Origin: Actinoplanes octamycinicus
GTDB lineage: Bacteria > Actinomycetota > Actinomycetes > Mycobacteriales > Micromonosporaceae
Length of the DNA: 64,000 nt
Assembly (NCBI RefSeq): GCF_014205225.1
Contig: NZ_JACHNB010000001.1
Location: 1,488,001 to 1,552,000 of the forward strand
Direction: 5' to 3'
The translations under genes were made by a program, and so were the position numbers. Of this stretch, positions 45,464-55,434 are shown in pieces (positions within the stretch are counted from its first letter, which is position 1; the number at the start of each line of letters is the position of its first letter). A model generated the notes under the pieces. It ran no database searches, was not told the DNA's origin, and worked only from the letters and a program-made list of their open reading frames with translations.

Positions 45464-45616
45464 TGGCGACCGGGATCACGTCCACGAATCGGTAATGAAA
45501 CGTTGACACAGCGCTAACCTCGGTTGACGGAGAGCTGATCACCGGTCTGCCGCGGTTTTCCTCATCCCCGGCACGTGGCGACCGATCTGTCCGGCCGCTG
45601 CGGAGAGGAGCACCGG

Positions 45617-47206
45617 GTGAAGAAGCGCCGCACGGACGCCGAGACGCTGTCCGCCGCCCTACTGACGATCGAGGACCAGCGGGCCTGGGACGCCCGTGCC
45701 GAGCTGGCACGGGCTGTGGAGCTGGAAGACGCGGCGCTCGCCCTCGGCGACGACTTGCTCGTCATGCGGGCCCGGCTGTGCCAGATCAACATGCGGATGC
45801 GCAGCGGTGACGTGGCCGCCGCGGCGGAGCAGATCTGGCGGGTGCACCAGTGGGCGGTCGACAACGACGCCCGGCAGTTGCTGGCTCGGACCCACCTGAT
45901 CTGGCACAGCATCCATCAGCACCTCGGTGATGCCGAGCAGGCCCTGGAGCACGCGCTGCTCGCGGTGGAGCTGCTCGATGACGACTCCACCGAGCACATG
46001 CATGTCTGGCACCGCACCAAGCTGGGTGATGCCCTCTGGGCCGCCGGCTCGGTGGACGCCGCCCGGCAGCGTCATGCGCAGGCCGAGGAGCTTGCCGTCC
46101 GGACCGGCTCACCGGCGCTGCTCTGCCTGCTCAACAACTATGCGTACGCCGAGTTCTCCTACGGCGACCAGCAGCGCGCCGAGGAGATCGCCTGGCGGAT
46201 GGAGCACCTCGCCCGCGAACAGGGGGAGCAGCTCCAGCCTTCGTTCCTGGACACGCTCGGCGCGATCCAGAACGGCAACGGGCACTACGCCGCCGCCGAG
46301 GCGACCATGTTGCACTGCATCGAGCAGCACGCCGAGGGCCAGCACGAGGACGCGGACGCGCTCGCCGAGTACCTTCTGACGCTCAGCCAGGCGCAACGCG
46401 GGCTGGCGGCGTACGACCGGGCCCAGGGCAGCCTCGACGAGTCCCGTCGGCTGTGCCTGGAGCGAGACCTTGGCGAGACGCTCGTCCGGGTGCAGCAGGA
46501 ACAGGCCGAGCTGCACGCCGCCCGGGGCGAGTTCGCCGCGGCGTTCGCCGCGCACAAAGCCTTCTTCGAGGCCCACTGCAAACTGCAGTCGCTGCAGCGG
46601 GAAGCACGTACCCGGACCCGGCAGGCGATGTTCGAGACCGCCGAGGCGCGGCAGGAAGCCGAGCGCTTCCGCGAGCAGGCCCGCCGGGACCCGCTCACCG
46701 GCCTGCACAACCGCCGCCACGTCGACGAGGTGCTGCCCGGCCTGATCCGCACCGACCCGCAGCTCACCGTGGCGCTGGTCGATCTGGACCACTTCAAGCA
46801 GATCAACGATCAGCTGTCGCACGACGTCGGCGACCAGGTGCTGGTCCGGGTCGCCCAGCTGCTGGCCCGCGAGGTGGCCACCGCCTGCCCGGGCGGCTTC
46901 GCGGCCCGGATGGGTGGCGAGGAGTTCCTGGTGGTGCTCCCGGGCACCGCGGTGCCACGGGCGCACGCGCTGCTCGACGCCCTCCGGAGGACCATCCGCA
47001 ACCAGCACTGGGCGCCGATCACCCGGCACCTGCCGGTGACGGTGAGCATCGGCGTGGCCGGCCTGGCCGACGCCCCGCAGGGCGCCCAGGCACCCCTTCT
47101 GTCCACTGCGGACGGTCATCTGTACGCTGCCAAGCACGGCGGACGTGACCGCGTGGTCTCCTCGGTGCAGCTGCGCGACTGGGTCGGGCACGCCTCGGCC
47201 GCCTGA
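45617..47206 (+). CDS. GGDEF diguanylate cyclase with TPR-like N-terminal region
   Basis: 529 residues; the GTG at 45617 has GAGGAG 6 nt upstream. The first 350 residues are helical repeats like TPRs (AAAAEQIWRVHQWAVDNDA, DAARQRHAQAEELAVRTGSPA, RGLAAYDRAQGSLDESRRL). A coiled coil (FETAEARQEAERFREQARR) leads into a GGDEF domain with DPLTGLHNRR, VALVDLDHFKQIND and the active-site RMGGEEF. An RxxD inhibitory site is not seen at the usual place. It makes cyclic di-GMP in the cytoplasm; there is no membrane segment, so its input is probably protein binding. Confidence 0.93.
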   Translation: MKKRRTDAETLSAALLTIEDQRAWDARAELARAVELEDAALALGDDLLVMRARLCQINMRMRSGDVAAAAEQIWRVHQWAVDNDARQLLARTHLIWHSIHQHLGDAEQALEHALLAVELLDDDSTEHMHVWHRTKLGDALWAAGSVDAARQRHAQAEELAVRTGSPALLCLLNNYAYAEFSYGDQQRAEEIAWRMEHLAREQGEQLQPSFLDTLGAIQNGNGHYAAAEATMLHCIEQHAEGQHEDADALAEYLLTLSQAQRGLAAYDRAQGSLDESRRLCLERDLGETLVRVQQEQAELHAARGEFAAAFAAHKAFFEAHCKLQSLQREARTRTRQAMFETAEARQEAERFREQARRDPLTGLHNRRHVDEVLPGLIRTDPQLTVALVDLDHFKQINDQLSHDVGDQVLVRVAQLLAREVATACPGGFAARMGGEEFLVVLPGTAVPRAHALLDALRRTIRNQHWAPITRHLPVTVSIGVAGLADAPQGAQAPLLSTADGHLYAAKHGGRDRVVSSVQLRDWVGHASAA

Positions 47207-47327
47207 CCCCCGGTCGTGTCACTCCGTGACGAAATACGGATCATGGGGGTGATGCCGGTCAATCGTTGACGCTAGGCTGGACGGACTGTCGATGATCGAC
47301 GGTGGGGTCCAGCGTGAGGAGGCGGTC

Positions 47328-48155
47328 GTGGAGCACAGCAGTGGTAACTCCGCTCCCAGCGAGGTCGCTCCGCCTGGGGTCAACATCAACGTGCCGCACT
47401 CCGCCCGCATCTACGACTACTGGCTGGGCGGCAAGGACAACTTCGCGGTCGACCGGGCGGTCGGCGACGCGATGATCCAGGCCATCCCCGGCATGCGCTA
47501 CATGGCCGGGGAGAATCGCAAGTTCGTTCACCGCGCCGCCCGCGACCTGGTCGCCAAGGAGGGCATCCGGCAGTTCCTGGACGTCGGCACCGGCATCCCG
47601 ACCCGGCCCAACCTGCACGAGGTGGCCCAGCGGATCGCCCCGGAGACCCGGGTGGTCTATGTCGACAACGACCCGATCGTGCTGGTCCACGCCCGCGCCC
47701 TGATGCTCAGCTCCCCGCAGGGCCGCAGTGAGTACATCAGCGCCGACATCCGCGACCCGCGCTCGATCCTGCAGGACAAGGTCCTCAAGGAGACCCTGGA
47801 CCTGACCCAGCCGGTCGGCCTCACCCTGATCGCGATCCTGATGCTGCTGGCCGACGAGGACGACCCGTGGTCCACGGTCGCCGCGCTGCGCGACGCGATG
47901 CCGTCCGGCAGCTGCCTGGCGATCACCCACCCGACCGCCGACTTCAACCCGGACGAGGTCGGCCAGGCCGTCGCCGCCGCCACCGGCGCCGGGATGACCC
48001 TGGTCGCCCGCACCCAGGAGGCGGTCGCCCGCTTCTTCGGCGACTGGGAGCTGCTCGAGCCGGGCCTGGTCCCGGTCTCCGCGTGGCGCCCGGACGCCCC
48101 GGCCGCCGACCCCAAGGCGGCCTATTACTGGGCCGGAGTCGCCCGCAAACCCTGA
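47328..48155 (+). CDS. SAM-dependent methyltransferase, DUF574 family
   Basis: 275 residues; the GTG at 47328 has GAGGAGG 5 nt upstream. DUF574 (PF04672) signature PHSARIYDYWLGGKDNFAVDRAVG, a Rossmann SAM site FLDVGTGIPTRPNLHEVAQ, VVYVDNDPIVLVHARAL, and EYISADIRDPRSIL. The C-terminus is AYYWAGVARKP. The family is abundant in filamentous actinobacteria; substrates are unknown. Single gene, followed by the tandem-repeat region. Confidence 0.92.
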   Translation: MEHSSGNSAPSEVAPPGVNINVPHSARIYDYWLGGKDNFAVDRAVGDAMIQAIPGMRYMAGENRKFVHRAARDLVAKEGIRQFLDVGTGIPTRPNLHEVAQRIAPETRVVYVDNDPIVLVHARALMLSSPQGRSEYISADIRDPRSILQDKVLKETLDLTQPVGLTLIAILMLLADEDDPWSTVAALRDAMPSGSCLAITHPTADFNPDEVGQAVAAATGAGMTLVARTQEAVARFFGDWELLEPGLVPVSAWRPDAPAADPKAAYYWAGVARKP

Positions 48156-48230
48156 CCACACCCCGGCCAGCCCGCAACGTGCCGTCTCAGGTTCTTCCAC
48201 GCAAAAACACCTGAGGTGCACCACAAGATC

Positions 48231-48515
48231 GGCCCCGCCCACTGCCCGGGCGGGGCCGATCCTTCTCCTGACGCCGCTCGCCGCCCACTCCCCGGGCGGG
48301 GGCCGATCCTTCTCCTGACGCCGCTCGCCGCACACTCCCCGGGCGCGATCCTTCTCCTGACGCCGCTCGCCGCCCACTCCCCGGGCGCGATCCTTCTCCT
48401 GACGCCGCTCGCCGCCCACTCCCTGGGCGAGGCCATCCTTTTCTGACGCCGCTCGCCGCCCACTCTCCGGGCGAGGCCATCCTTTTCTGACGCCGCTCGC
48501 CGCCCACTCCCCGGC
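48231..48515. repeat. Tandem repeat array, six units of 42-47 bp
   Basis: The CTGACGCCGCTCGCCG core occurs at 48268, 48315, 48357, 48399, 48443 and 48487 (spacings 47, 42, 42, 44, 44). Units have the form GATCCTTCTCCTGACGCCGC + TCGCCGCCCACTCCCCGGGC. The last two units carry a variant CATCCTTTTCTGACG. It is non-coding as far as seen, although frames stay open because one period is 14 codons. It lies just after the DUF574 gene. Confidence 0.9.
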
Positions 48516-49046
48516 CCCACCCTCAGCCGGCTCAACAGCGAGTTGTCCACATCAGCGCGCCGTCCACAGCCCAGCCCCGGAAAATCCTGCCGCCGCGCCA
48601 CACTGTCTTCGGGGCGGCTCCCCCTGGGAGGGCGGGGACTGGGACGTGGCCGAGCCCGCAGCGAATGAACCGGATGCTGCCGGCCGCCCCACGGACCAGC
48701 TGGCCACGCCGCTGCGGCACATCTCGACCCGGGACGTCCCCCGAGCTGCTGCTCGGCTTCGGGCCGACTGCGGCGCTTCCGGCGTACCGGAAATCTCGGC
48801 GCGCAAGCCGAAGCGAACCTCGGGCCGGCCGGCGGACCGGAGAGTGCTGACCGCGCGTGCCCGAACGGCTCAGGTGAAGCGGATCTGTCCTACTGTGCCG
48901 GCCCCGCCTCCCGCCCCGGCGGGGCCGGCAAGTCCACGACCCGGCCGTCGCCGGTCGTTCACCGGCGACGGCCGCGCACTACTCACACACCGCTCGGAGG
49001 ACCCCTCCGAACGTCCTGGACGCCCGATCAACCCCGGTGGGGTGGA
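48516..49046. other. Intergenic region with strong hairpins
   Basis: No convincing gene. Perfect inverted repeats are present: a 12-bp stem at 48897-48908 / 48918-48929 and a 10-bp stem at 48945-48954 / 48962-48971. Long open frames exist on both strands but have shadow-like composition. Confidence 0.6.
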
Positions 49047-49089
49047 CCGGATGGGTGGCCCAGCACGGGGAACCGGGCCACCCATCCGG
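49047..49089 (-). terminator. Perfect 15-bp hairpin downstream of the 49092-49400 gene
   Basis: Stem CCGGATGGGTGGCCC (49047-49061) with its exact complement at 49075-49089 and a 13-nt loop. It begins 2 nt after the stop codon of the minus-strand gene and so is probably its terminator, though no U-tract follows. Confidence 0.65.
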
Positions 49090-49091
49090 CG

Positions 49092-49400
49092 TCAGACGGG
49101 CGTATCTCGCAACACCCGAAGTCGTGGCCGTTTGCAGGCCGGGGGGATCGGCACCCGGCCGGCGCGGATCAGGATCTCGCGCACCGCGCCCTCGCGGCCG
49201 TCCGGATCGACGACGATCCCGCGGACGCCGAGCCAGATCTCGCCCTCGTGGGGAATCGGCTTGTGCCAGTCGACCCGGACGACGCGCAGCCGGATCGTGC
49301 CGATGCCGTAGCAGTAGTCCGACTCGGCGAACTCGTGGACCGGCCAGCGTGGCCGGCTCGGCCGCAGCCGATCGTCACGGACCCGTGGCGCCGAGGCCAT
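49092..49400 (-). CDS. Hypothetical protein
   Basis: 102 residues from the ATG at 49400; the frame is open to 49481, so the start is uncertain. The segment VHEFAESDYCYGIGTIRLRVVRVDWHKPIPHEGEIWLGV... looks like a compact beta-rich protein (alternating strands, conserved-looking Trp and Tyr) and ends in a basic tail (CKRPRLRVLRDTPV). No family recognised. Downstream of another small gene on the same strand (59-nt gap), with a strong hairpin after it. Confidence 0.6.
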   Translation of the reverse strand: MASAPRVRDDRLRPSRPRWPVHEFAESDYCYGIGTIRLRVVRVDWHKPIPHEGEIWLGVRGIVVDPDGREGAVREILIRAGRVPIPPACKRPRLRVLRDTPV

Positions 49401-49458
49401 CCACCGCGAACGGGCGTGCGGCCGGCCCACGGACCGGTGCCCGTGACAACGAACGAGT

Positions 49459-49710
49459 TCACTCGCGCGCGTCGGACTCACCCTCCTCTGCCGGTGGCTC
49501 GGCGGTGCTGATGCCGCCGGGCTTACTCAGTGCGTAACGAACGCCGCCGAACCGGTGGGTAACCGCGCTGGCCCGGGTGGAGGCGGCGACCACGTCGTCG
49601 GTGATCCTCACGTCCCGGTGGACCGGCGGCGGATTACCCCGGCGCGAGCTCTCACTCGCACCGGGATCGCCCGGATCGGGGTGTTCTGGGCCGATGTTGG
49701 GTATCGACAC
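49459..49710 (-). CDS. Hypothetical protein
   Basis: 83 residues from the GTG at 49710 (AGAGG 8 nt upstream) or 86 from the GTG at 49719. The N-terminal half is hydrophilic (IPNIGPEHPDPGDPGASES). The centre VRITDDVVAASTRASAVTHRFGGVRYALSKPGGI looks like a folded core, with an acidic end. No family recognised. First gene of a two-gene minus-strand unit, divergent from the DUF397 gene. May be connected with the neighbouring DUF397/XRE regulatory pair, but only by position. Confidence 0.55.
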   Translation of the reverse strand: MSIPNIGPEHPDPGDPGASESSRRGNPPPVHRDVRITDDVVAASTRASAVTHRFGGVRYALSKPGGISTAEPPAEEGESDARE

Positions 49711-49837
49711 GCTCGTCACCTCTCGCTCGGACGCCCCCGCCAGGGAGCCTCGCGTCGAGGCCGCAGACGTCGCTCCGCGACCGACCAGTCACCTAAAGAT
49801 GTCACCCTGAGTGACACTTCTTCGGATGTCTTGTGCG

Positions 49838-49908
49838 TTATCATGCTCAGAATCCCGGTACTACGCAAGGCCAGATGCACGTGCATTTGCATCGTCAAGC
49901 GATTTGGC
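49838..49908 (+). promoter_or_regulatory. Conserved leader element upstream of the DUF397 gene, with ATGCACGTGCAT palindrome
   Basis: It contains a perfect 12-bp palindrome ATGCACGTGCAT (49875-49886) and an ATG frame (49843) reading MLRIPVLRKARCTCICIVKR. The same element, same orientation relative to its gene, occurs at 51263-51333 before the XRE gene. By hand count 41 of 66 nt and 14 of 22 codons agree, and the 5 differing codons among the conserved residues change only at the third base. Here the frame has no early stop and runs into the DUF397 gene in another phase. Either a leader peptide region or a binding site. Confidence 0.55.
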
Positions 49909-49966
49909 ACAGGGGGATCACCACCCCGGGTCGAACAGCGATCCGGGCAGACCAAGGGAGCTTGGA

Positions 49967-50203
49967 ATGACCTACGTGGTCAACGGCATGCCAGCCGGTC
50001 AGCTGCAGGGCGTGACCTGGCAGAAGAGCCGTCGCAGCAACCCGAGTGGCAACTGTGTGGAGTGTGCCGTCCTGCCCGGCGGCGACGTCGCCGTGCGCAA
50101 CTCCCGCGACCCGGAGGGTGCCGCGCTCATCTACACCCGCGCCGAGATCGAGGCGTTCCTGGGTGGGGTCCGGGACGGGGACTTCGACAACCTGGTGGCC
50201 TGA
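49967..50203 (+). CDS. DUF397 domain protein
   Basis: 78 residues; ATG with AGGGAG 6 nt upstream. Diagnostic motif GVTWQKSRRSNPSGNCVECAVLPGGDVAVRNSRDPEGA and an acidic C-terminal helix (EIEAFLGGVRDGDFDNLV). In actinobacteria DUF397 proteins are partners of XRE-DUF5753 regulators, modulating them in developmental and antibiotic control (as in the Streptomyces pairs near bldB/whiJ). Its cognate XRE gene is convergent directly downstream. Confidence 0.93.
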   Translation: MTYVVNGMPAGQLQGVTWQKSRRSNPSGNCVECAVLPGGDVAVRNSRDPEGAALIYTRAEIEAFLGGVRDGDFDNLVA

Positions 50204-50222
50204 AGGTCACCGCCATACACGA

Positions 50223-50259
50223 AAAACGGTCCGGCCGGGACATTCACACCGGCCGGACC
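50223..50259. terminator. Bidirectional terminator between DUF397 and XRE genes
   Basis: Stem GGTCCGGCCGG (50228-50238) with CCGGCCGGACC (50249-50259). AAAAAC on the left gives a U-tract for the minus-strand XRE transcript. It lies between two convergent stop codons. Confidence 0.8.
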
Positions 50260-50275
50260 ATTGGCGTGCCTGGAC

Positions 50276-51166
50276 CTAGATCGGGCGGCCGACCTCGTGC
50301 AGCAGCTTCCCGAGGATCTCCTGCGTGTGGTTCGGCGGGTCGGCGTCGATGCAGACGCGCTCCATCGCCATCGCGTACTGATCCACGTCCTCGCGCTTGT
50401 CGAGGTAGATCGCACTGGTGAGCTGCTCGACGTAGACCACGTCGGGCAGCTCCGGCTCGGGGAAGCGCAGGATCGAGAACGGACCACCGGCCGCGGCGTG
50501 CCCGCCCGCGGTGAACGGGATGATCTGCAACCGCACGCTCGGCAGTTTCGACGCCTCGATCAGCGCCTCGATCTGCGAGCGCATCACCTCGACGCCGCCG
50601 ATCGGCCGGCGCAGCACCGCCTCGTCGATCACCGCCCACAGCTGCGGCCCACCCGAACGGGTGAGAATCTGCTGCCGCTGCCGACGCACCTCGACCCGCT
50701 TGTCGATCTCGTCGGAGCTCGCGCCGGCGTGACCCAGCATGATCACGGCACGCGCGTACTCCGGGGTCTGCAGCAGGCCCGGGACGAACTGGATCTCGTA
50801 GGTGCGGATCAGCGTGGCCGCCGCCTCCAGCCCCAGATAGGCCTGGAACCAGTTCGGCAGCACGTCGTTCAGCTGCTGCCACCAGCCGGGGCTGTTCGCC
50901 TGGCGGGCGAGGCCGATCAGCGCGTCGCGCTCCGCTTTGTCGCTCACGCCATACAAGGTCAACAGGTCCGCGACGTCGCGTTCCTTGAAACTGACCCGGC
51001 CCAGCTCCATCCGGCTGATCTTGGAACCCGAGGCGCGGATCTCATAGCCCGCCGCATCCCGGGTGATCCCTTTCGACTCCCGCAGCTTCCGGAGCTGGGA
51101 GCCGAGCAGAATGCGCAGCACGGTTGGGCCGCCGCCCGGCGCCTCCTCCTGCGTACCCGCGCTCAC
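50276..51166 (-). CDS. XRE family regulator with DUF5753 domain
   Basis: 296 residues. N-terminal helix-turn-helix (about 18-75): LGSQLRKLRESKGITRDAAGYEIRASGSKISRMELGRVSF. C-terminal DUF5753 (about 105-290): IRTYEIQFVPGLLQTPEYARAV, then RRQRQQILTR, LWAVIDEAVLRRPIGG, RLQIIPFTAGGHAAAGGPFSIL. This is the usual DNA-binding partner of DUF397 proteins. Convergent with the DUF397 gene; a copy of the shared leader element lies about 100-170 nt upstream, hinting at common control of both partners. Confidence 0.93.
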   Translation of the reverse strand: MSAGTQEEAPGGGPTVLRILLGSQLRKLRESKGITRDAAGYEIRASGSKISRMELGRVSFKERDVADLLTLYGVSDKAERDALIGLARQANSPGWWQQLNDVLPNWFQAYLGLEAAATLIRTYEIQFVPGLLQTPEYARAVIMLGHAGASSDEIDKRVEVRRQRQQILTRSGGPQLWAVIDEAVLRRPIGGVEVMRSQIEALIEASKLPSVRLQIIPFTAGGHAAAGGPFSILRFPEPELPDVVYVEQLTSAIYLDKREDVDQYAMAMERVCIDADPPNHTQEILGKLLHEVGRPI

Positions 51167-51232
51167 CTGACTCCTCGTCGCCGCGTCGTGACTACCGGAA
51201 TGCAGTCGTGTGCATCCTAAGGCGGAGATCGT

Positions 51233-51328
51233 CTACCGCGAAACCTTGTCAAGCCTAGTCCTACCGAAGCGGATGCGCGCACAGATGCACGTGCAGACGG
51301 CCTTGCGGACGCACTTGATGACGAGCAT
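51233..51328 (-). CDS. Candidate 31-residue Cys-rich leader peptide upstream of the XRE gene
   Basis: A frame beginning MLVIKCVRKAVCTCICARIR and ending VSR, with four cysteines (C6, C12, C14, C16) and a basic tail. The stop lies 66 nt before the XRE start on the same strand. The related frame at 49843 upstream of the DUF397 gene keeps RKA-x-CTCIC and RFG with third-position changes (ATT/ATC, TGC/TGT, CGA/CGC, TTT/TTC, GGC/GGT), which suggests translation. No clear ribosome site is visible and the partner copy lacks an early stop, so this may instead be a DNA or RNA control element. Confidence 0.35.
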   Translation of the reverse strand: MLVIKCVRKAVCTCICARIRFGRTRLDKVSR

Positions 51329-51333
51329 GATAG
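51263..51333 (-). promoter_or_regulatory. Conserved leader element upstream of the XRE gene, with TGCACGTGCA palindrome
   Basis: Second copy of the element at 49838-49908, in the same orientation relative to the gene it precedes. It shares ATCATGCTC, CGCAAGGCC and TGCACGTGCAT blocks at the same spacing. The palindrome lies at 51286-51295. Possible binding site for the XRE protein or leader region. Confidence 0.55.
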
Positions 51334-51455
51334 CTGACAGACACGTACCGATTGCTAACGCAGCGTGCCGAAAACTTCGGCTGCTCGGCCGTTGCGCCCC
51401 GTTGGTGCTGCCTGTTGGCCACCTGACGCAGCCTCGAGAGCTTGGAGGCACCGTG

Positions 51456-51755
51456 ATGTCGAACTGGATGACATCCACGCCGACCGTCACCCCGCCACAG
51501 CGAGACCCGGCCGACGTGGCGCCTGCGGAGAGCTACCGCCCGGCCGACCCGGTGTGGGTCTACCGCGACGGCTGGCGCGCCGGCGTCATCGAGGCCGCCT
51601 CCCCGCGGGCCGTCACGGTCACCTACAAGCCAGGCAGCCACCGCGGCACCGGCGTCGACACCTTCACCGCGCCCTACGTGACCTCCCGCGACGACGACGA
51701 CCCGACCCTCGACAACCGCGGTCTCCGGCTGGTCCGTCGAAAGCCGCTGGCATGA
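51456..51755 (+). CDS. Hypothetical protein
   Basis: 99 residues; ATG with TTGGAGG 7 nt upstream. The middle (PADPVWVYRDGWRAGVIEAASPRAVTVTYKPGSHRGTGVDTFTAPYV) has the look of a small beta-barrel domain (SH3- or Tudor-like spacing of strands), with a low-complexity N-terminus. No family recognised. Its end overlaps the next start (ATGA), so it is coupled with a small membrane protein gene. Confidence 0.65.
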   Translation: MSNWMTSTPTVTPPQRDPADVAPAESYRPADPVWVYRDGWRAGVIEAASPRAVTVTYKPGSHRGTGVDTFTAPYVTSRDDDDPTLDNRGLRLVRRKPLA

Positions 51756-51937
51756 CCGGCGCCGTCACCGTCTCCGCCATCGTCGGCCTGCTGAGCCTCT
51801 TCTCCGGCGTCGCCCTGGGCTGGTATCTACGGCGCACCAACGACTGGTGCCCCACCTGCGGCGAGCAACTCACCTGCGGCGATTGCAAGATGAGCGTCCA
51901 CTGGCCGGACCAGCAGCCCGCCGCCAGCCCCCGCTGA
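51752..51937 (+). CDS. Small membrane protein with Cys-rich (zinc-ribbon-like) tail
   Basis: 61 residues, start overlapping the previous stop by 4 nt. One N-terminal membrane helix (VTVSAIVGLLSLFSGVALGWYL, about residues 5-26). Then NDWCPTCGEQLTCGDCKMSV with CPxC and CGDC pairs that could bind zinc or form a redox pair, and a Pro-rich end. Not a known family to me. Its coupling to the upstream gene suggests joint work at the membrane. Confidence 0.6.
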   Translation: MTGAVTVSAIVGLLSLFSGVALGWYLRRTNDWCPTCGEQLTCGDCKMSVHWPDQQPAASPR

Positions 51938-52779
51938 TCCCGGCCGGTCGAGCCCACTCACTTCCGGCCGGTTCACCACTATCCGGCCCGCCGACGTCTT
52001 GGCCGCCCCACCACGGACCACTCTCCGGCCAGCACCATCACCACCGGCCCGCGGACCACTTCCGGCCGCTTCAACCTCAGGATCGCCCTCTCCGGTACGA
52101 CCGGCACCCACCCCAACCGCGCTGCCCGGTCACGCCGTCGACGCGAGGCCGCCCGGACCTCACGACCGCGAGGCCGCATCCGGGCCGAATTGCCCGCCTT
52201 GCGGTGATCCGCCCAAACCCCAGGTGCGCCCGGCACGCCCACCCGGCACGCGCGCCCCGCCGTGTGGGGCACGCGCGCGCCGCACCGTGTTGGGCAGGCG
52301 CTCCAAACCCTGACCCGGCCCAACTCCGACCCGGCACCAGGCCCAGGAGCAGCCCGGCTTCAGGCTCGGAGCACCAGCCGGGCCCGCGAGGCAGCGGGGG
52401 CTTGTATCGCCCTTCATTCCTCAGCACCCGTCTTCGTCCCTGAACACCAGCCAGTGCCTCGCAAGCCCGCTAAGGGCCAGACAGCAGGCGGCCGCCGCAG
52501 CAGCCAGACCGGACCGCAAGGGGCGGCCGAGCCGCGCGGCTGGGCCGAGCCAGGCGGCCGAGCAGGGCTTTCGTCTGGGTTTGGGTTTGGCGGGTCGTGG
52601 CCACCCGCGGGCGTCGCCCTGGAGGGCCGGGCGTTTTGGACGCGCAGCGGCCAGCCCGGCCCGGAAGGGTCCCTGGCGGGAGCGACGATCAGTGATCAGC
52701 GCGGATCCGAGTCAGCACGCATTTGATCTTGAAGGTCTTGAAGGTCTTAAAGGTCCGGATCTCTGCGGCGACATATCCG
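51938..52779. other. Long intergenic region carrying repeat copy B
   Basis: About 840 nt without a credible gene. It contains the two arms of the dispersed repeat (52111-52219 and 52588-52716, both inverted relative to copy A) with a 368-nt unrelated spacer, two near-copies of ACTTCCGGCCG at 51960 and 52058, and three tandem 9-bp CTTGAAGGT units near 52727-52755. Confidence 0.7.
52111..52716 (-). repeat. Two-arm dispersed intergenic repeat, copy B
   Basis: Arm 1 (52588-52716) is the reverse complement of 17136-17264 with 126 of 129 bases identical. Arm 2 (52111-52219) corresponds to 17353-17459, including a 33-nt identical block. The spacer (368 nt) is longer than in copy A (88 nt) and unrelated except for GGGTTTGGGTTT next to arm 1. 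Confidence 0.85.
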
Positions 52780-54987
52780 TTATGGAGTGATATTGAAGTT
52801 GTCGCGGAAGACGTTGTCCGGGTCGTAGCGGCGCTTCAGCTCGCGCAACCGCTCCAGCGTCGCTGGCGGCCAGGCCTCCGCGATCCGCTCCGGCCGCTGA
52901 TCGGTCTCGAACGACAGGTACAGCCCGCGGAAGTGCGGCGCCAGCTCCGCCCAGGCCGCGTCCAGCCGCTCCCGGGACGAGCCGAACGCCACCACCGAGA
53001 AGTTCGCGTCGCGGTGCGCGTAGGCGGTCGCCTCGGCCGGCACGTCGGCGACCGCGCCGCCCACCGAACGCACCTGGAAGAAGTAGGCCGCCCCGGACGC
53101 GATCAGCCGGGCCGCGGCCGCGCAGAACGCCGGGGTGAGATGGTCGATCAGGCCGGACCGGGCGGTCGGATCGCCCTGCCCGTCGTGCGGGGCGTCCGGC
53201 ACGTTCATCACCTCGGCGTACGGCACCAGCTGCACCTGCTGATCGAGCAGCGGCCCGACCGTGGCGATCGGCGTGAACCGGTCGATGATGGTGTCCGGCA
53301 CGTCGGAGTCGACCACGCCGTAGATCTGCGCGAGCGACTGCCCGCGCCGTGGCGCCCCCATGATCAGGTTGGTGGTGACGTCCCGGGGCGCGGCCTCCAT
53401 CGCGGCGCCCCAGCGTTCCAGCAGCCCGGCGCCGTCGGTGGCGTCCAGCACGAACTGCCCGAAACCGACCGGCCCCACCTCGTCCACCTGGAACTCGAAC
53501 GCGGTGACGATGCCGAAGTTCGCCCCGGCGCCGCGGACCGCCCAGAACAGGTCCGGGTTCTCCGTCGCGCCGGCCCGGACCAGCGTGCCGTCGGCCAGGA
53601 TCAGCTCGGCGGCGCGCATCCGGTCGATGGTCAGCCCGTGCTCCCGGGCCAGCCAGCCGATCCCGCCGGCGGTGGCCAGCCCGCCGACGCCGACCCCGCC
53701 GTAGTCGCCGCTGCTCAGCGCCCAGCCGTGCGGGGCGAGTGCGGCGGCCACCTCCTTCCAGCGGGCGCCGGGACCGACTCTGATCAGCCGGTCGGCGGTC
53801 GACAGGATCTCGATGGTGTTCAGCCGGCCGACGTCGATCACGATCCCGCCGTCGTTGGTGGAACGCCCGCTGATCCCGTGGCCGCCGCTGCGCACCGCGA
53901 GCGGCACCTCCTGGTCGCGGGCGAAGGCCAGCGCGGTCACCGCCTGCTCGACGTCGCGCGGCTGCAGCACCAGGCCGGGGGCGCCGGCACGCATGTAGGT
54001 GGAACGGACCCGGCCGTACCCGAAATCGCCCGGCTCGATCGCGACTGCCGCAAGCGAATCCGGCAACCCGTCGTAGTCGATCCCGTCCCGGCGGCGCGCC
54101 AGCGCCGCGGCGGCGCGCACCGGACCGGTCGGCGCGCCGCTCCCCGCGCGCTCCCGGTCCACCGCCTCGCGCAGCGCCGGGATCACCTCGGCGGCGAACC
54201 GTTCCAGCTCGGCGGGCTGGTCGGTGCCGACGATGAAGGTGCTGACGCCGTGGTCCCGCACGTAGCCGAGCAGTTCCTCGACGTCCTGCTGGGGCCCGAC
54301 GTTGAGCAGCCGCCGGATCTCGCGCGGGTCCCGGCCGGCCGCGGCCGCCGCCTCGTCGATGATCGTGTTGCCCCGCGCCAGCGCGCCGGGTTTCAGGTAG
54401 GACAGCGACGGCAGCCATCCGTCCGCCTTGGTCCCGGTCAGCTTCAGCATCCGCGGGCCGTAGGCGCCCAGCCAGATCGGCACCCGATGGGCCGGCGCGG
54501 GACCCCGCTTCGTGCCGTTGAGCTGGTAGTACTCACCGTTGTAGCGGACCGGCCGGCGGGACTCGGTGTCCCACAGCTCGCGGATCACGTCGATCGCCTC
54601 GCCGAGCTGATCGACCGATTCGCCGGGCGTGCGCCGGGTGACGCCCATCGCCACCATCGGGTCCCAGAAGCCGCCGGCGCCCAGCCCGAGCGCGAGCCGG
54701 CCGCCGGAGAGCAGGTCCAGGCTGGCCGCCGCGCGGGCCAGCACCGGGGCCGGCCGCATCGGGACGTTGAGCACGTTGCCGGCCAGCTCGATCCGCTCGG
54801 TGCGGGCCGCGACCCAGCTCAGCAGCGTCCAGGTGTCCAGGAAGCCGGGCTGGTACGGGTGGTCCTGGAAAGTCACCAGGTCGTAGCCGAGCTGCTCGCT
54901 GAGCACCGCCCGGACGACCACGCCGTCCGGATCGTCGTTGGCCGGCGTCAGAAACGTCCCGAACCGCAGCGGAAGCCCGTAGTCCAC
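52780..54987 (-). CDS. Fusion of LLM-class flavin oxidoreductase and BBE-like FAD oxidase
   Basis: 735 residues from the GTG at 54987 (DYGLPLRFGTFLTP start; the open frame to 55236 runs over the divergent gene). Residues 1-280 are luciferase-like (LLM, F420/FMN-dependent): GYDLVTFQDHPYQPGFLDTW, GNVLNVPMRPAPVLARAAASLDLLSGGR, LGLGAGGFWDPM. From about 310 to the end it is a berberine-bridge-enzyme-type oxidase: LAVRSGGHGISGRS with His370 as likely covalent FAD anchor, the FAD segment SSGDYGGVGVGGLATAGGIGWL (no second Cys anchor) and the BBE end RRYDPDNVFRDNFNI. The two flavoenzymes probably act in series on one substrate, unknown. Confidence 0.9.
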   Translation of the reverse strand: MDYGLPLRFGTFLTPANDDPDGVVVRAVLSEQLGYDLVTFQDHPYQPGFLDTWTLLSWVAARTERIELAGNVLNVPMRPAPVLARAAASLDLLSGGRLALGLGAGGFWDPMVAMGVTRRTPGESVDQLGEAIDVIRELWDTESRRPVRYNGEYYQLNGTKRGPAPAHRVPIWLGAYGPRMLKLTGTKADGWLPSLSYLKPGALARGNTIIDEAAAAAGRDPREIRRLLNVGPQQDVEELLGYVRDHGVSTFIVGTDQPAELERFAAEVIPALREAVDRERAGSGAPTGPVRAAAALARRRDGIDYDGLPDSLAAVAIEPGDFGYGRVRSTYMRAGAPGLVLQPRDVEQAVTALAFARDQEVPLAVRSGGHGISGRSTNDGGIVIDVGRLNTIEILSTADRLIRVGPGARWKEVAAALAPHGWALSSGDYGGVGVGGLATAGGIGWLAREHGLTIDRMRAAELILADGTLVRAGATENPDLFWAVRGAGANFGIVTAFEFQVDEVGPVGFGQFVLDATDGAGLLERWGAAMEAAPRDVTTNLIMGAPRRGQSLAQIYGVVDSDVPDTIIDRFTPIATVGPLLDQQVQLVPYAEVMNVPDAPHDGQGDPTARSGLIDHLTPAFCAAAARLIASGAAYFFQVRSVGGAVADVPAEATAYAHRDANFSVVAFGSSRERLDAAWAELAPHFRGLYLSFETDQRPERIAEAWPPATLERLRELKRRYDPDNVFRDNFNITP

Positions 54988-55131
54988 CTGAAGATCGTAT
55001 GCCGCGCCCGGGCCGGGTGACCGCGGCTCGTCTCGGGCCGGTTGCTGTGCCGGTGTGCCGACAAACGCGGTTGACACGCCCTCGGAAGGGGTAGTTTCGA
55101 GCAGTCGATCCGCGCAACGGAGGTGACCGGC

Positions 55132-55434
55132 GTGCTCGAGCCGCGGGATGAGCGGGAGTTCGACAGCTTGGTGTCCCGGCTGCGGGACACCGACCCAGCC
55201 TTCACCCGGCGGTGCGACCGCCTGCAGGCCCGCCAACGCCGGCGCTGGCTGATCATGGCGGTTCTGCTGTGGACGGTCGCCCCGCTCTGCCTGTTCTTCG
55301 GCGGCTGGACCGGCGTGCTGGAGGCGGTGCTGGCAGTCGTTTACGGCGCGTGGCTGCTGCGCAAACGCAGCCGGGCGACGGAGGCCCCGGCCTGGCCGTC
55401 ACCGACCGACCGCCGCCCGACCGCGGAAGCGTGA
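55132..55434 (+). CDS. DUF3040-like small membrane protein
   Basis: 100 residues from the GTG at 55132 (GGAGG 8 nt upstream; the GTG at 55123 overlaps that site). N-terminal acidic helix (PRDEREFDSLVSRLRDTDPAFTRR), a basic stretch and two hydrophobic helices (about 42-58 and 62-76). The arrangement matches DUF3040 proteins of actinobacteria, whose function is unknown. A possible promoter (TTGACA at 55071, TAGTTT at 55092) has a short 15-nt spacer. Confidence 0.7.
   Translation: MLEPRDEREFDSLVSRLRDTDPAFTRRCDRLQARQRRRWLIMAVLLWTVAPLCLFFGGWTGVLEAVLAVVYGAWLLRKRSRATEAPAWPSPTDRRPTAEA

Follow-up and report, generated by a model that had tools for sequence, protein, structure and literature searches.

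A conserved palindromic site before both genes of an XRE/DUF397 pair in Actinoplanes octamycinicus: candidate operator of a small gene network rather than a hidden peptide

Pairs of an XRE regulator and a DUF397 protein (WhiJ/BldB-like) are numerous in filamentous actinobacteria, with effects on both development and antibiotic production. In the literature covered, only a few of these pairs have known operators and direct targets. One pair in Actinoplanes octamycinicus raises a specific question: why do two convergent genes carry the same leader element, and does this element act as DNA or as a translated peptide? The locus lies in the window, a stretch of 64,000 nucleotides (contig NZ_JACHNB010000001.1, positions 1,488,001 to 1,552,000). 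An earlier note had read the leaders as a sign of joint control, exerted either by the XRE protein at the palindrome TGCACGTGCA or by a short Cys-rich upstream frame. Comparison with related loci supports joint control through the XRE protein and speaks against the frame. The genes and leader parts are these:

49838-49908, plus strand: leader element before the DUF397 gene, as given in the earlier note
49839-49844, plus strand: TATCAT, candidate -10 hexamer of the putative DUF397 promoter, based on conservation
49864-49872, plus strand: operator block CGCAAGGCC, DUF397 side
49876-49885, plus strand: palindromic candidate operator TGCACGTGCA (the decamer), DUF397 side, exact in 45/45 convergent loci
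49967-50203, plus strand: DUF397 gene, the BldB-like small partner (PF04149, 71.9 bits, cut-off 24)
50276-51166, minus strand: XRE-DUF5753 regulator gene, Sco1979 family (PF13560 and PF19054; NF058600)
51263-51333, minus strand: leader element before the XRE-DUF5753 gene
51286-51295, minus strand: palindromic candidate operator TGCACGTGCA, XRE side, exact in 44/45 convergent loci
51299-51307, minus strand: operator block CGCAAGGCC, XRE side
51327-51332, minus strand: TATCAT, candidate -10 hexamer of the putative XRE promoter, kept at -37 from the decamer

The regulator matches NF058600 with 430 bits over residues 13-291, above the curated cut-off of 350, which places it in that family. With an XRE helix-turn-helix, a DUF5753 domain and an adjacent DUF397 gene, the locus is a WhiJ/BldB-type pair, and its two genes are convergent. 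The nearest XRE relatives, at 83-94% identity, come from Actinoplanes and its splits (L014-L055, L057, L059, L068). Searches among solved structures found no sequence relative of the XRE or DUF397 protein at E<=0.01, and the poor XRE structure model (pLDDT 64.6) was not used.

Direct reading confirms that TATCATGCTC, CGCAAGGCC and TGCACGTGCAT are common to both leaders at equal spacing. TATCAT is conserved at 95% or more on the DUF397 and XRE sides alike (46 copies per side), and a generic sigma-70 scan found no complete promoter at the leaders. A repeat search recovers the leader pair as the longest inverted match within 48000-53000 (58 nt, 71%). The repeat search also finds six direct repeats of about 51 nt, spaced 42-47 nt apart, at 48251-48520. 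The surroundings include an S-adenosyl methyltransferase gene at 47292-48155 (plus strand; PF04672, 348 bits) and, at 52780-55236 (minus strand), a luciferase-like monooxygenase domain and a FAD-binding/BBE oxidase domain joined in one open frame.

A 58-nt match at 71% could also reflect a recent, functionless duplication. Over 120 columns in the 45 species with both sides, however, side-to-side identity is no higher within species (0.498) than between them (0.506), while each side is itself conserved among species (0.67 on the XRE side, 0.69 on the DUF397 side). Because cognate similarity equals non-cognate similarity, the likeness has been long kept and is not a recent copy. Each side has its own long history, with only the core shared. 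Recent duplication was rejected on these figures, and we give it practically no credence.

The case for a translated Cys-rich leader peptide before both genes, exerting control by attenuation, began with the two window copies, where 14 of 22 residues are alike and five codons differ only in the third base. The earlier note had called this a coding signature. By eye, its count is correct for these two copies, yet the signature is lost on comparison with orthologs. The ortholog set comprised 47 sequences, the window plus 46 of 80 loci, and left out second copies without DUF397 (L056, L061) as well as more distant loci (L060, L062-L067, L069-L093); since L054 (XRE side) and L018 (DUF397 side) end at contig borders, each side is represented by 46 copies. 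On the DUF397 side, 41 of 46 copies close the proposed frame with a stop among its first 17 codons, and one copy has ACG in place of ATG. The window copy looked open, as the earlier note had observed, because it is among the 5/46 without an early in-frame stop. On the XRE side, 12 of 46 copies have ATC for ATG and four stop early. Variability at codon positions 1, 2 and 3 outside the decamer is flat (0.299/0.336/0.342 on the XRE side, 0.269/0.288/0.236 on the DUF397 side), so the ortholog copies show no third-position bias on either side, and the CTCI string is a mere reading of TGCACGTGCAT in the proposed frame. A conserved open frame with a kept start codon and no early stop, the mark of a leader-peptide attenuator, is lacking among these copies. 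The Cys-rich peptide was rejected on the stops, the lost start codons and the missing bias; at the level of sequence comparison, the stop and ATG counts already refute it as the shared mechanism.

What remains is a DNA site, and other XRE/DUF397 pairs were searched for it. Of 121 confirmed XRE relatives, 80 were kept for the locus survey. In each of the 70 DUF397-bearing loci, an exact decamer lies no more than 500 nt ahead of at least one of the genes XRE and DUF397. Of the ten relatives lacking DUF397, nine have no decamer upstream; the exception, L018, carries one on a contig that stops about 260 nt past XRE. The 70 loci represent five gene orders, with the operator present in every one:

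Convergent, 45 loci: sites before both genes in all but L054, where the fetched stretch starts only 60 nt ahead of XRE
XRE then DUF397, 14 loci: sites only before XRE in seven Actinomadura and L079, before both genes in five Nonomuraea and L089
Both genes in one direction with DUF397 a long way upstream, six Kitasatospora: sites before both genes
DUF397 just before XRE, three Streptosporangium: one site, before DUF397
Divergent, two Frankia: site before DUF397 only

The site also follows the protein. A comparison of 97 DUF397-bearing XRE loci, pooled from four locus samplings, on the window's 23-residue helix-turn-helix stretch gives 0-5 differences for the 80 loci with the site and 6-16 for the 17 without it. 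The two groups do not overlap (U=0, p=1.1e-11, a value made too small by shared descent; the loci are related, and P values overstate their independence). XRE loci without DUF397 break this rule: L056 and L061 (one helix mismatch), L085 and L096 (three) and L070 and L076 (four) have no upstream decamer despite a close helix. L132, paired with a protein of about 82 residues, combines seven helix mismatches with a decamer. The decamer sites could also be acted on in trans by orphan XREs whose helices are similar, and paralogous XREs that share the helix could bind there as well.

These exceptions give some room to a different regulator that binds TGCACGTGCA and co-regulates the set, given that a palindrome alone does not name its binder, that paralogous XREs have near-identical helices and that some XREs with such helices lack a site of their own. 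Yet among DUF397-bearing loci the site follows the XRE helix without overlap, and it stays with XRE/DUF397 through changes of gene order, which makes another binder unlikely. The conservation of the site, its position and its tracking with gene order and recognition helix are established by this comparison. Joint control by the XRE protein via TGCACGTGCA, as the earlier note had suggested, thus gains strong comparative support as a prediction, from both the 70/70 loci and the helix tracking.

Genome-wide counts show that placement, not number, sets the decamer apart. TGCACGTGCA occurs 34 times in the 10.28-Mb single-contig host genome, compared with 52 times for a reversed control, so it has no genome-wide enrichment and its placement is what counts. 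The chance of finding it within 150 nt upstream of both genes is about 2.5e-7, assuming an even spread. At up to three mismatches, the composite CGCAAGGCCNNNTGCACGTGCAT finds the two leaders (0 mismatches each) and a third place (3 mismatches) in the host genome; this third match means nothing by itself, because the reversed control yields five, and the place turned out to be the site of a GGDEF gene described below. Across the family, GCAAGGCCNNATGCACGTGCAT at up to two mismatches has matches in 103 of 300 genomes. All 67 genus genomes, host included, show at least one forward and at least one reverse match by eye, while a control is non-zero in 2/67; among the 233 family genomes of other genera, 36 have matches, mostly single.

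Further operator sites elsewhere in the genome had escaped the earlier note. Sorted by an open-reading-frame heuristic and by reading, most of the 34 host decamers lie inside genes, and seven are seemingly intergenic or at gene starts. Two of these seven are the window leaders; the others are:

With its first base 40 nt ahead of a GGDEF-domain gene (EAL is present as well in the ortholog L139)
With its first base 47 nt ahead of an EboE-like TIM-barrel gene
Ahead of a member of an unnamed family of about 82 residues
Before an AAA_31 gene (L151)
Flanked by a LacI-type gene and the gene divergent from it (L162)

The EboE assignment comes from ortholog L138, which scores 118.8 bits against the NCBIfam EboE model, below the cut-off of 250; the host gene itself matches AP_endonuc_2 below threshold. 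Orthologs of both genes, GGDEF-EAL and EboE-like, occur in 67/67 genus genomes, and the decamer was tested at the best-scoring 30 loci of each (one of the two ortholog searches also gave weaker second matches in many genomes). The exact decamer stands upstream in 30 of 30 loci for either gene, always at -47 for the EboE-like one; shuffles contain it in 0.17% and 0%. The AAA_31 comparison gene, with the decamer in only 3 of 14 orthologs (14 of 25 loci, those whose match reaches the N-terminus), was dropped as a regulon member.

The family of about 82 residues is present in all 40 genomes searched and has a copy beside the pair:

49092-49481, minus strand: gene of the ~82-residue family, divergent from DUF397, placed by alignment on F-x-E-x-DY-x-x-G-x-G; start codon uncertain

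The family, which includes the window copy, L129, L136 and L156, carries the motif F-x-E-x-DY-x-x-G-x-G, followed in most members by W-Y-E-V-x-G-x-E; at E<=1, the members tested matched nothing in Pfam or NCBIfam. The decamer lies 82-152 nt upstream in 22 of 30 loci tested. In the other eight, orthologs of the window copy, it lies 500-545 nt upstream and is, by coordinates, the DUF397 operator. A structure model (pLDDT 83.7) predicts a small protein that is mostly beta and has a helix at its C-terminus, without a match in the PDB at E<=0.001. The idea that this family is a divergent DUF397 found no support (hhalign probability 0.5%). Among 20 third sites sampled from at least 21 in the same genus, eight have a paralogous XRE with a related helix and an ~82-residue protein in place of DUF397, and three show the ~82-residue protein with no XRE seen (L134, L136, L137). 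Two are EboE-like (L138, L143), three GGDEF-EAL (L139-L141) and four have other or unclear content (L127, L128, L130, L133).

The peptide reading returns at the GGDEF-EAL gene, where all 30 loci have a short upstream open frame that spans the operator and overlaps the gene start with its stop (ATGA in 16, GTGA in 14; L169-L198). Located by a conserved purine-rich stretch before its ATG, this frame has 25-31 codons, or 55 and 63 in two loci. Its three codon positions are equally variable (0.374/0.346/0.39), so what seems to be conserved is the frame and not the peptide. Read in this frame, the decamer falls within LHVH or MHVH (in a few loci MHVQ or LHVQ); the CTC of the window comes from a different frame, which argues against a common peptide. 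The EboE-like leader frame (MVHTG...CTC; 25 codons in 28 of 30 loci, 28 codons in two) has no third-position bias in those loci either, and coding is not claimed for it. Even with a start-overlapping frame at one candidate target, attenuation by a Cys-rich peptide is very improbable.

The spread of sites also bears on the proposal, made for DUF397-Xre on genomic grounds (PMC2701414), that such pairs are type II toxin-antitoxin modules, in which case the operator would serve the usual autoregulation of these modules. Conserved sites, however, also lie far from the pair, and S. coelicolor is described as showing no clear toxicity when 14 DUF397 proteins are overexpressed (PMC10364602). A toxin-antitoxin role for the pair is therefore improbable, and control of a small set of genes by the XRE protein is the reading we retain.

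Upstream of the candidate -10 hexamers, the element extends to a further box that the earlier note had missed:

49802-49814, plus strand: BldD-box-like TCACCCTGAGTGA upstream of the DUF397 promoter, 9/9 informative positions of TNACNCWGNGTNA
51356-51368, minus strand: BldD-box-like GCACGCTGCGTTA upstream of the XRE promoter, 8/9 informative positions

The BldD box consensus is given as TNAC(N)5GTNA or nTnACnC(A/T)GnGTnAn (PMC4151990, PMC7374567), and it is matched at a fixed position before both window genes. Counting the window and its orthologs, TNACNCWGNGTNA reaches at least 8/9 in 43 of 46 copies on the DUF397 side (at -74 to -76 from the decamer) and 32 of 46 on the XRE side (at -73/-74), which leaves 3/46 and 14/46 below that level; 0.9% of mononucleotide shuffles reach it. 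A box at a conserved position, as in a BldD regulon, is thus found on both sides, with BldD binding itself predicted, and the host genome encodes one protein with a BldD-like C-terminal domain. Unlike the window promoters, the GGDEF-EAL and EboE-like upstream regions (30 loci each) contain no copy with a BldD box of at least 8/9; 11 of 30 GGDEF-EAL copies reach 7/9, compared with 6.7% of shuffles. The window also encodes a GGDEF-domain protein at 45575-47206 (plus strand; PF00990, 110.6 bits), about 2.8 kb before the DUF397 gene, which is a third link to c-di-GMP beside the GGDEF-EAL target and the BldD-like boxes.

Taken together, the leaders are probably a regulatory DNA module with an operator bound by the XRE protein, serving autorepression of both genes and control of a small regulon; the shared element looks like part of a small gene network and not like a hidden peptide. 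For XRE binding, repression, the DUF397 role and BldD binding, we infer the following course. The module would run from the BldD-like box through the candidate -10 TATCAT to an operator just downstream of the presumed start, which takes the form CGCAAGGCC-N3-TGCACGTGCAT and would be bound by the XRE-DUF5753 protein itself. Since the convergent genes need separate promoters, the operator is kept before each; relatives whose two genes point the same way may have just one. By analogy with WhiJ9, the XRE protein would occupy a site downstream of each start and repress XRE and DUF397, and the DUF397 partner may adjust XRE activity, as in the WhiJ model (described in PMC6262351, PMC4255298). The XRE protein may also control the GGDEF-EAL gene, the EboE-like TIM-barrel gene and genes of the ~82-residue family, and the XRE and DUF397 promoters may receive a further, c-di-GMP-dependent signal through BldD. 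At each target the effect may be repression or activation, because WhiJ9 is reported to activate a neighbour as well (PMC10294661). A broader idea, possible although on balance doubtful, is that Sco1979-type pairs form a c-di-GMP-linked switch in Actinoplanes: BldD/c-di-GMP would act on both promoters and the XRE protein directly on GGDEF-EAL in a feedback loop, with an EboE-like enzyme and ~82-residue alternative partners of paralogous XREs as further components.

The conserved site of 10 bp, which accompanies the pair through gene rearrangements and marks further genes, yields a short target list with a c-di-GMP enzyme on it and suggests that a BldB-like module is connected with BldD/c-di-GMP signalling. 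No title or abstract describing this operator or regulon was found in a search that covered few subscription papers, and the motif may already be known for SCO1979. SCO1979/SCO1978 of Streptomyces coelicolor belongs to the same NCBIfam family, NF058600, as the window XRE and likewise has a DUF397 partner; in contrast, the window genes are convergent with separate promoters. Autoregulation of SCO1979 is already reported by citation, with the protein said to bind upstream of its own gene (PMC12565409), and Zhu et al. 2020 is named as the study of SCO1979 in PMC10364602. In eight genomes of one genus, presumably Streptomyces, the best XRE locus carries the decamer before XRE in 8/8 and before DUF397 in 7/8; the decamer is missing from eight other XRE loci of this genus that are more distant (L279, L282-L288). 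WhiJ9/BldB9 of Streptomyces venezuelae is a second relative, with an XRE gene beside DUF397 and a site that, according to PMC10294661, lies downstream of its own promoter and mediates about two-fold autorepression, much as proposed for the window pair. Its repeats, CGNNCTCAAC, known as WhiJ9's own site and not as a family-wide one, have no match at up to one mismatch within 49838-49908 or 51263-51333. WhiJ9 is described as binding three direct repeats, CGXXCTCAAC (PMC10294661), whereas the window site is palindromic and recurs at several places across the genome.
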